A DNA stretch of 64,000 bases, taken from assembly GCA_951828235.1 (NCBI GenBank), contig OX639965.1:1385191-1449190 (forward strand), written 5' to 3'. Each line of letters opens with the position of its first letter. The first letter of the stretch is position 1. Below, piece after piece: positions 11,078-47,961 of this stretch. This DNA is from an uncultured Gammaproteobacteria bacterium. Its GTDB lineage: Bacteria > Pseudomonadota > Gammaproteobacteria > Steroidobacterales > Foliamicaceae. The position numbers were made by a program, and so were the translations under genes. Below the pieces are notes generated by a model. It saw only the letters and a program-made list of their open reading frames with translations. It made no database searches and had not been told where the DNA came from.

Positions 11078-11170
11078 TTGAAAGGGTCTGTATCTTGAGG
11101 TCTGTGCGATGGGTGTTCAAGGGTTGTGCGCCGGGTTTTTTCTTCCTGATCCAAGATCATTGGTGGCGGG

Positions 11171-11305
11171 TCCTGTGGAGTTGTGGTCGAGAGGCTCGCG
11201 AGTGGGGTCAGGCGGTGGGTAACGCGGTCGCGTTATCCACGGGCTGACCCCACGTCCCGTAAGGGCGCGGGCCGTTCCGCAGGACTCGTCCACAACTCCA
11301 CAGGA
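11171..11305. repeat. Nested palindrome within the insertion sequence
   Basis: The outer arms TCCTGTGGAGTTGTGG (11171-11186) and CCACAACTCCACAGGA (11290-11305) are a perfect 16-bp inverted repeat. Inside, TGGGGTCAG (11203-11211) pairs with CTGACCCCA (11244-11252). Inside that, GTGGGTAACGCG (11215-11226) pairs with CGCGTTATCCAC (11229-11240) with one G-T pair and a 2-nt loop. It lies just beyond the 3' end of the transposase gene. It could be a terminator, an insulating structure or a binding region; no function is established. Confidence 0.75.
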
Positions 11306-11326
11306 CGGGCTTTAAAGGAAAGGCGC

Positions 11327-26946: not shown

Positions 26947-30626
<3,680 letters not shown>

Positions 30627-30631
30627 CGGCG

Positions 30632-30764
30632 CGCTGGCTCCCTTACCTGGCCCTTCCGGGAGACGCATGAATCCATCCATGGAGCTTTGTTCCGCTGTGA
30701 GCGCCGGGTCATCGACGCTCACTGGCACACAAACTCCCGGAAGGGCCAGGCAAGGGAGCCAGCG
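30632..30764. repeat. 133-nt core-and-arms palindromic element, copy 1
   Basis: A 31-bp inverted repeat (30632-30662 with 30734-30764, one mismatch) encloses a 71-nt core (30663-30733). The core is 69/71 identical to that of copy 2 at 47390-47522 and contains an inner 7-bp hairpin, GTGAGCG (30697-30703) with CGCTCAC (30716-30722). Only CGGGAG/CTCCCG next to the core is shared between the arms of the two copies; the remaining 25 bp differ. It lies between the convergent metH and prmC genes and could also stop transcription from both sides. Confidence 0.85.
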
Positions 30765-45795: not shown

Positions 45796-47364
45796 ATGCA
45801 CGTGGACAGTCCCGCCCCGGACCTGGAGATCACCGAAGAATTCGCCCGCGCGCTTGACGGCATGGAGCAGGGCGGCCGGCACCTGCTGATAACAGGCAGC
45901 GCGGGCACCGGAAAGTCCACCCTCCTGGGCCACTTCTGCCAAAGCGTCGACTGGGACCCGGTGGTCCTGGCGCCTACCGGCGTGGCGGCGCTGAACGTGG
46001 GCGGTCAGACCGTTCATCGCTTTTTCGGTTTCGGAATCGACGTAACGCCCCAGGCAATCGCCGCGCGCCGCGGCAAGCCGCGCAACGCAAGTCTCTACAG
46101 GAGCCTGCGCACGCTGATCATCGACGAGGTATCGATGCTGCGCGCCGACCTGCTCGACTCCGTGGACCTGTTTCTGCGGCGCTACGGTCCGAGCCCGAAC
46201 GCGCGCTTCGGCGGCGTACACATGGTGTTCATCGGCGACCTTTACCAGCTGCCGCCGGTGGTTACCGGGCTGGAGCGGGAGGCGCTGGGCCAGGTCTACG
46301 ATTCCCCCCACTTCTTCAGCGCCCGCGCGCTCGAGGGCGTCGAGCTCGAGATCATCGAACTCACGCGCGTATTCCGGCAGCGCGACCGGGGGTTCGTGCA
46401 GCTGTTGAACCGCATTCGCAAGAAGTCGCTTGAAGACAGCGATCTCGATCACCTCAATCAGCGGGTGGATCCCCATTTCGAGCCGCCCGCTGACGGCGGC
46501 TACATCACGCTGACCGGCACCAACCGCAAGGCGGGCCTGATCAACCGCAACAGGCTGGACGGGCTCGCCGCGCCGGAGCATCAGTTCGATGCCGTGATTG
46601 AGGGGACCTTCGGCCGCGAGTACTACCCCACCGAAGCGCAGCTTCGCTTCAAGGCGGGCGCCCAGGTCATGCTGCTGAACAACGACAGCGCGCAGCGCTG
46701 GGTCAACGGCAGCATCGGCGTGATCGAGGGCGTGGAGATCGGCGGCGGCGAGGCCTATGTGCTCGTGCGCCTGGCCGATTCGGGACGCCGTGTTCGTGTC
46801 GAGCCCCACGAATGGGAGCTGATCCGTTTCGAGGCCCGCGAGGGGTCCATCGTCAGCAGCCCGGCGGGAACCTTCACCCAGTTTCCGTTCCGGCTGGCGT
46901 GGGCGGTGACCGTGCACAAGAGCCAGGGCAAGACCTTCGAGCGGATGGTGGTGGATCTCGACCGGGTGTTCGCCGCCGGGCAGGCCTACGTTGCACTGAG
47001 CCGCTGCACTTCCCTCGAGGGCCTGGTGCTGACCCGCCCGCTGACGGCGGGTTCCATTCGCTGCGACTGGCGGGTGCAGCGCTTCCTGACCGGCGAGCAG
47101 TACAAGCGCGCCGAACGCAGCCTGTCTGCCGATGCCAAGCTCGAAATCATCGAGAAGGCCATCGCCACGGACAGCGCTTTGGACATCGAGTACCTCAAGC
47201 GCAACGACGTGCGCACACGCCGCCGCGTTCGGCCGCTGGAAGTTGGTATGCGCTCCTATTCGAGTCGCGAGTTTCTGGGCATGCGCGCCTGGTGCATGCT
47301 GCGCCGGGACGAACGCACCTTCCGCGTAGATCGCATTCTCTCCCTCAGCGCTCCCGACTCCTGA
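45796..47364 (+). CDS. Pif1/RecD-like superfamily 1 helicase with C-terminal WYL domain
   Basis: A 522-aa protein. Walker A GSAGTGKST (K40), PTGVAALNVGGQTVHRFF (motif Ia), IIDEVSML (Walker B), IGDLYQLPPV (motif III) and WAVTVHKSQGKTFERM plus QAYVALSRCTSLEGLVL (motifs V and VI) define a Pif1-like 5'-3' helicase. The last 70 residues (LDIEYLKRNDVRTRRRVRPLEVGMRSY ... RTFRVDRILSL, written here in parts) look like a WYL ligand-sensing domain. ATG 45796 starts 14 nt after lolB. The WYL fusion may allow regulation by single-stranded nucleic acid or nucleotide. Confidence 0.85.
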   Translation: MHVDSPAPDLEITEEFARALDGMEQGGRHLLITGSAGTGKSTLLGHFCQSVDWDPVVLAPTGVAALNVGGQTVHRFFGFGIDVTPQAIAARRGKPRNASLYRSLRTLIIDEVSMLRADLLDSVDLFLRRYGPSPNARFGGVHMVFIGDLYQLPPVVTGLEREALGQVYDSPHFFSARALEGVELEIIELTRVFRQRDRGFVQLLNRIRKKSLEDSDLDHLNQRVDPHFEPPADGGYITLTGTNRKAGLINRNRLDGLAAPEHQFDAVIEGTFGREYYPTEAQLRFKAGAQVMLLNNDSAQRWVNGSIGVIEGVEIGGGEAYVLVRLADSGRRVRVEPHEWELIRFEAREGSIVSSPAGTFTQFPFRLAWAVTVHKSQGKTFERMVVDLDRVFAAGQAYVALSRCTSLEGLVLTRPLTAGSIRCDWRVQRFLTGEQYKRAERSLSADAKLEIIEKAIATDSALDIEYLKRNDVRTRRRVRPLEVGMRSYSSREFLGMRAWCMLRRDERTFRVDRILSLSAPDS

Positions 47365-47389: not shown

Positions 47390-47522
47390 GGTGAGTGACG
47401 CGCCCCCTTCCTGTCGGGAGACGCATGAATCCATCCATGGAGCTTTGTTCCGCTGTGAGCGCCGGGTCATCGGCGCTCACTGGCTCACAAACTCCCGACA
47501 GGGAGGGGGCGCGTCACTCACC
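47390..47522. repeat. 133-nt core-and-arms palindromic element, copy 2
   Basis: Same size and layout as copy 1: a 31-bp inverted repeat (47390-47420 with 47492-47522, one mismatch) encloses the 71-nt core 47421-47491. The core differs from copy 1 at two positions only. The arm GTGAGTGACGCGCCCCCTTC shows no relation to the copy 1 arm. It lies 25 nt after the helicase stop and just upstream of a -10-like box at 47569, in the same orientation to the upstream gene as copy 1. Confidence 0.85.
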
Positions 47523-47568
47523 TCTGATCCTGCGCGGAAGTAGGAAAAACGAGGCGCAAACGAGGTTC

Positions 47569-47574
47569 TATAAT
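47569..47574 (+). promoter_or_regulatory. Likely -10 box for the methyltransferase/PQQ operon
   Basis: TATAAT at 47569-47574 lies 33 nt before ATG 47602. No good -35 box is found at 16-18 nt; the corresponding bases are A-rich. An activator, or a -35 function within the upstream A-rich stretch, would be needed. Confidence 0.4.
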
Positions 47575-47601
47575 CAAAGGTTCAGCATGGGGGAGATAAC
47601 C

Positions 47602-47961
47602 ATGAGTGACAATCCCGGCTACACGGCCGATTTCATCAAGTCCGACACGGACCAGGCCACGTTCATGAAGGATCCGGCGATGGATCACCTGATGACGGCC
47701 CTGGTATCGATCAGCACCGAGCTTTGGGTCCAGGCCCGGCGCACGAAGATCACCGAGCGCCTGCTGGAGGACCACGGCAAGGTAACCCGCGAGATGATCG
47801 AGGGATATAAACCCAGCGCCGAGGAGGAGGCCGCCTGGCGGGCCGAGCGCGACAGCTTCATCGAGCGGACCTTCGGTTCGATCACGGTGGGCGCTTCGCG
47901 TTCGAACCAGACGCCGCCCCTGGATCGCGAACTTTTTGACATGAGAAGGAGGCAGTCATGA
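47602..47961 (+). CDS. Unknown 119-aa protein, first gene of the methyltransferase/PQQ operon
   Basis: I do not recognise this protein. It is mostly helical and charged, with no signal peptide and no TM helix: DHLMTALVSISTELWVQARR then TKITERLLEDHGKVTREMIEG and EEEAAWRAERDSFIERTFGSI. GGGGGAG precedes ATG 47602; ATG 47587 is in frame but has no leader. The stop overlaps the next start (ATGA), so it is translationally coupled to the methyltransferase gene. It could be a small subunit or a chaperone for an exported partner. Confidence 0.75.
   Translation: MSDNPGYTADFIKSDTDQATFMKDPAMDHLMTALVSISTELWVQARRTKITERLLEDHGKVTREMIEGYKPSAEEEAAWRAERDSFIERTFGSITVGASRSNQTPPLDRELFDMRRRQS

Follow-up and report, generated by a model that had tools for sequence, protein, structure and literature searches.

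YPAL (RU-2) is a mobile, intergenic repeat that has been described as confined to Yersinia and Erwinia (PMC2229807). Its 168-bp sequence has been treated as one repeat family, and about 100 sequences fit a 168-nt model (PMC2267715). The elements reported here resemble YPAL/RU-2 in being multi-copy, mobile and intergenic, in lying near genes, and in containing internal inverted repeats that form a long stem (PMC2759123, PMC2229807). They also have a homologous core, ACGCCGTAAATACATCCATGTAGGCTCGA..GCC-ATCC-..GACG: when the RU-2/YPAL sequence of Y. pestis given in PMC2759123 is aligned with the consensus of our class-wide cores, the score is 65, whereas 2000 shuffles reach at most 41. On the strength of this core homology, the family is an unrecognised wide extension of YPAL. 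It differs from the described repeat in that no unit of about 168 bp is conserved from end to end, the units in the genus studied here being 112–133 bp long plus short flanks, and in that the cores are conserved throughout the class whereas the arms are unrelated between many copies.

Other bacterial repeats offer partial parallels. The REP, BIME and REPIN sequences associated with RAYT proteins, including the GTAG- and CGTC-tagged REPs, are likewise small, palindromic and multi-copy, and they too follow stop codons, with an enrichment between convergent genes (PMC3733652). Some REP dimers have been reported to lie inside long palindromes that do not occur without the REP. However, REPs are hairpins of 20–40 bp, whereas the present elements form a three-way junction with long, variable arms and have no GTAG-tag architecture. 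Mobilisation of the RAYT/IS200 type was rejected, since no match to PF01797 (Y1_Tnp) was found in nine genomes of the genus (G000–G008). ERIC, NEMIS/Correia, RUP and other bacterial miniature inverted-repeat elements (MITEs) are also short, non-autonomous, intergenic and able to form stem-loops (PMC2229807), but in them the terminal inverted repeats are conserved and the ends are mostly TA, whereas here the terminal arms are the variable part.

A third parallel is mutational. Template switching between the inverted repeats of quasipalindromes homogenises the arms, produces multi-base compensated changes and inverts the spacer (PMC8604942, PMC8794818), and a transversion bias is mentioned for bacterial data (PMC8604942). 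Such events have been reported at single loci; here they would have shaped a whole dispersed repeat family. Neither a class-wide family nor concerted arms of this kind were reported in the literature searched, outside which most subscription journals lay.

In this article we describe two copies of the element in a 64,000-nt stretch of gammaproteobacterial DNA (the window, to which all coordinates refer) and their relatives across the class. Both loci are likely to be old, dispersed copies of a YPAL-like, non-autonomous mobile hairpin element whose arms have been homogenised after insertion.

Anatomy of the two copies

A reading of the window made from its sequence alone (hereafter the sequence-only reading) had described two 133-nt units, each with 31-bp arms around a 71-nt core, and this description is confirmed: the arms are 97% complementary, with 71 nt between them. 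Copy A consists of a left arm (30632–30662), with an outer part of about 25 bp that is variable and a conserved inner GGGAG, a core of the long type (30663–30733), placed by its likeness to copy B and by the family alignment, and a right arm (30734–30764) that is the reverse complement of the left with one mismatch. In copy B the left arm (47390–47420), the long-type core (47421–47491) and the right arm (47492–47522) follow from the inverted repeat, and the core also from comparison with copy A. All arms and cores are given on the forward strand. The single mismatch in each stem, also described before, is A.C in copy A and T.G in copy B.

Two hairpins are formed by the reverse strand of each core. 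The first, P2, lies at 30672–30683 in copy A, where it reads TCC-ATGGAT-GGA with an ANGGAY hexaloop and is supported by class-wide covariation, and at 47430–47441 in copy B, where the ATGGAT loop is supported by the family alignment and the class-wide loop census. The second, P3, is extended in the long-core type and is without a GGA loop; it occupies 30686–30733 in copy A, as judged from folding and from its register with the inverted repeat of copy B, and 47444–47491 in copy B, as judged from that inverted repeat and from folding. Folded as single-stranded DNA, both units score 12 sd better than dinucleotide shuffles.

The two cores are identical at 69 of 71 positions, differing at core positions 53 and 65. 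As had been claimed, the outer 25 bp of the left arms are unrelated, agreeing at 8 of 25 positions, which is the chance level; the inner 6 bp are identical (6/6). The pair is not a chance occurrence, since a 23-nt piece of the core has exactly these two matches in the window, against a mean of 0.00 in shuffles. The nearby stop codons are also as described: a TGA ends at 30626, 5 nt before the left arm of copy A, and another ends at 47364, 25 nt before that of copy B. Copy A lies between convergent genes and copy B between genes of the same direction.

Spurious open reading frames cross both elements (28173–30728 on the minus strand and 47395–47961 on the plus strand), and would be annotated as proteins or N-terminal extensions with element-derived peptides such as SMDGFMRLP. 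Elsewhere in the window, positions 11170–11306 hold nested inverted repeats, with 22-bp arms around a 25-bp palindrome, which are unrelated to the core of the element.

Family size and distribution

The genome that contains the window (3.11 Mb) gives 43 BLAST matches to the core, some of which are fragments of a single copy, and 47 matches to a covariance model built from 57 copies. Each of eight congeners has between 28 and at least 62 matches, and some matches are found in other genera of the order. An exact 23-mer search places the same genus among public metagenome-assembled genomes labelled 'Gammaproteobacteria bacterium', for example SB0673_bin_2 and COS2_bin_9. In a sample of the class, 43 of 274 genomes, spanning 38 genera, have matches at E <= 1e-4.

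About 62 complete copies were located in the genus by core sequence alone, and all but a handful are flanked by complementary arms of 27–32 bp with 0–2 mismatches. The genus thus has a conserved arm length, with most arms measuring 28–31 bp, and the intact arms cannot be ascribed to ascertainment. In a genome of another genus (G294) the arms reach 27–49 bp and are near-perfect, and those of most copies are unrelated to each other.

Some elements stand head to head in close pairs, with about 30 nt between them, in the manner of REP dimers (L084, G004:C43, G004:C30, G004:C6). Two loci from two different families, L207 (G388) and L281 (G423), have homologous arms and outer flank (CATTrACAAAGCCTCACG, TTACTAAGG), and the outer part resembles the YPAL end TTGACAAAG.

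Origin of the arms

Both window sites are empty, with no remnants of the arms, in every alignable congener. Presence/absence polymorphism of the kind that marks YPAL as mobile is seen more widely: in pairs of filled and empty sites with flanks 84–96% identical, some of whose empty members may be secondary deletions, the arms match the empty sequence at chance level, apart from a few bases common to one border of one site. The inserted DNA takes in about 10–25 bp outside the arms. Unit ends sharp enough to reveal target-site duplications, which measure 3–26 bp in YPAL, were not found, the intergenic DNA being too diverged for base-level placement, and a search of plasmids, phages and viral contigs for near-identical filled/empty pairs gave none.

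Paralogous copies point the same way. In several subfamilies, copies at different loci have both arms and outer flanks in common (e.g. GCCCTTCGTTCGTCCCCCTCCTCGTTGGAG), and therefore the arms arrive with the element. This bears on the first of three explanations offered in the sequence-only reading, according to which each insertion makes a new, fixed-length inverted copy of the flanking DNA, by snap-back or target-primed copying, so that the target specifies the arms. Such a process would account for the many paralogous copies in which near-identical cores have unrelated arms, and for the presence of arms around every core examined, but against it stand the empty sites without arms, the arms and outer flanks common to paralogous sites, and the paired changes through which orthologous arms drift after insertion (see below). 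We regard it as very unlikely. The earlier contrast with ordinary repeats, which copy their arms along with the core, also falls away, because these elements do so too. What stands of the proposed 're-specified arms' is the difference between copies; its cause is less exotic, in that the arms travel with the element and then drift.

One site had first looked like an inverted copy of a flank: at L245/L293 (G363/G423), the G423 insertion lies between inverted REP sequences. It is better read as an insertion beside ordinary REPs, because the two REPs differ in sequence.

A second explanation in the sequence-only reading was insertion into hairpins that already existed. Congeneric DNA (0.93 Mb) contained 49 long inverted repeats; the core is the spacer in 45 of them, and none is an empty palindrome from which the core is missing, which leaves the idea unsupported in that form. 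The remaining four represent a different repeat type, whose spacer is about 200 nt long. Repeats of this second type (G006:C9, G005:C50, G007:C19) have arms of 32–38 bp whose outer ends are common and whose middle differs (e.g. AGTGCCGTGTCAAGC...GCATCAG), and they possibly evolve in the same concerted way as the element described here.

Inversion and exchange of the core

At five orthologous sites the core is inverted relative to its flanks (G001:118040 compared with G003 and G005; G005:101430 and G005:105693, each compared with G006; L035 compared with L051; and one site in G363 compared with G423), and the arms around the inverted cores are unchanged or related. At several of these sites core types have also been swapped within the same arms. 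At G005:105693/G006:201358 cores of 70 and 50 nt are enclosed by identical outer arms, and at a site in G363/G423 the cores measure 52 and 139 nt, with flanks beyond the palindrome that are nearly identical.

Orthologous sites with the same arms and different or inverted cores are what would be expected if the core were a small cassette, able to enter hairpins that already exist or to be exchanged between them, and YPAL targets have been reported to span or adjoin dyad symmetry (PMC2229807). Against this, 0.93 Mb of DNA yielded no long palindrome without the core, and at empty sites both arms and the core are missing together. A cassette of this kind is, in our judgement, highly improbable.

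Concerted drift of the arms

Related arms were compared in 37 independent pairs. In these, 111 double changes preserve Watson-Crick pairing, compared with 14 single changes and 628 unchanged pairs. The double changes comprise 63 transversions and 48 transitions, and because transversions make up 63 of the 111, they did not arise mainly via G.U intermediates. Mismatches are rare in the outer arms, at 48 of 2883 pairs (G.T 11, A.C 21), and the core hairpins have 1.1% G.T and 2.3% A.C, whereas in tRNAs from the same contigs G.U makes up 5.5% and A.C is absent. Within one genus, blocks in the middle of the arms have been replaced symmetrically. The paired arm changes are a record of DNA copying, and not of selection for RNA pairing. 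The predominance of double over single changes, together with spacer inversion at the orthologous sites described above, corresponds to the two effects reported for template switching.

Between orthologous copies the cores are about 99% identical, the outer arms about 88%, and the flanks, 25–150 bp away, about 93%. Among copies, core identity and arm identity are nearly uncorrelated (r = 0.14).

Core structure and a possible RNA role

Cores from across the class are plainly homologous, with the consensus GAC-ACGCYGTRAATAC-ATCCMT-GTANGCTCGNNGGCNGC-ATCCMT-GCNGCCRACG-GTC. They form a three-way junction, in which the long arm stem meets two small hairpins. When this structure is imposed on the class cores, 93.7% of cells are paired and 157 have changed on both sides; the corresponding values for shuffles are 68% and 43. 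Read on one strand, almost all of the loops fit the pattern ANGGAY. Two core types coexist, a short one (48–50 nt) and a long one (about 71 nt, as in the window); in the latter the GGA loop of the enlarged second hairpin has been lost, and a single GGA loop remains.

Searches of Rfam at gathering-level and e-value thresholds, made also with a suspicion of the TwoAYGGAY motif, gave no gathering-level match. The best e-value matches were long-stem microRNA models, which were judged spurious; mir-4716, for example, scored as high as 40.7 bits against the long stem (L069, L084), a false match that arises because the palindrome forms such a stem.

Several of these features would suit a structured RNA under selection, acting as a decoy for CsrA/RsmA or as a 3′-end element of mRNAs, with a stem that covaries through selection for base-pairing. 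Covariation in the core hairpins is strong, and both loops contain GGA in 37 of 37 class-wide cores. P2 often matches RUACARGGAUGU, which is the SELEX consensus for CsrA and is listed for this protein in the literature, and a CsrA gene is encoded in the window genome. The median distance from a stop codon to the element that follows it is 25 nt, and positions between convergent genes are over-represented: they account for 43 of 114 elements (38%), compared with 57 of 306 background gaps (19%), as counted from crude ORF calls. However, G.U pairs are nearly absent from arms and core alike, and the strand of the element shows no bias relative to neighbouring genes (21 vs 29, again from crude ORF calls) and flips between orthologues. 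The paired ANGGA loops that characterise CsrA/RsmA sites are present class-wide but are reduced to a single GGA loop in the long-core copies of the window, and selection on RNA would leave the perfect 27–49-bp arms unexplained. An RNA role as the cause of the variable stem is therefore unlikely, although the double ANGGAY hairpin does resemble CsrA sites, and binding by CsrA might be entertained as a hypothesis. The third suggestion of the sequence-only reading, a structured RNA with a variable stem, fits the anatomy, but the stem is kept at the DNA level, as its few G.U pairs and many transversions indicate.

A model for insertion and arm homogenisation

According to the model that we favour, that of a mobile hairpin element with arms homogenised after insertion, the mobile unit would comprise the conserved core (71 nt where the second hairpin is enlarged, otherwise about 50 nt), inverted arms of about 30 bp and an outer flank of about 10–25 bp. 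It would move by transposition, and insertion would bring the arms along with the element; no mobilising transposase for it was found. After insertion, template switching by DNA polymerase, or short-range gene conversion, would copy one arm onto the other. Because the arms would keep being copied onto each other, a mutation in one arm would be either erased or made symmetric. The arms could then drift at approximately the rate of neighbouring DNA while keeping their complementarity, which would lead to unrelated arms at different sites, and copying that takes in the spacer would leave an inverted core. Template switching is put forward as an agent that would act on every copy after insertion by analogy with the quasipalindromes discussed above.

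Slow change of the core could reflect constraint, conversion between copies, or both. The core is probably conserved through recognition of its two ANGGAY hairpins by a protein, for example a transposase or CsrA. Template switching alone leaves it unexplained that the arms stay near 30 bp; the hairpin may therefore need to be under some selection if its arms are not to erode. The unrelated, near-perfect arms in G294 are explained by drift only if those copies are old.

A further mechanism is that the core directs the writing of its own arms, with an ANGGAY-recognising protein or copying reaction actively restoring a perfect inverted arm from its partner, so that the core would be more than a passive spacer. 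This would be compatible with the lack of long core-less palindromes, with the unrelated, near-perfect arms that enclose near-identical cores in G294 and with the symmetric replacement of mid-arm blocks, but we think it quite improbable. If it were true, the element would rewrite its own stem and could count as a self-repairing palindrome.

Implications

Since the paired changes in these elements come from DNA copying, perfect covariation of a stem is no proof of RNA function, and RNA discovery based on covariation would be misled by paired changes of this origin. With its ANGGAY loops, the element also makes the hypothesis of a mobile CsrA site directly testable. More broadly, YPAL, hitherto an isolated repeat of Yersinia, is joined to a family found across many Gammaproteobacteria and gains an anatomy, that of a conserved double-hairpin core on variable arms. 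The homogenisation of arms and the inversion of loops, otherwise known from scattered loci, can also be measured in this family, which supplies hundreds of natural replicates.
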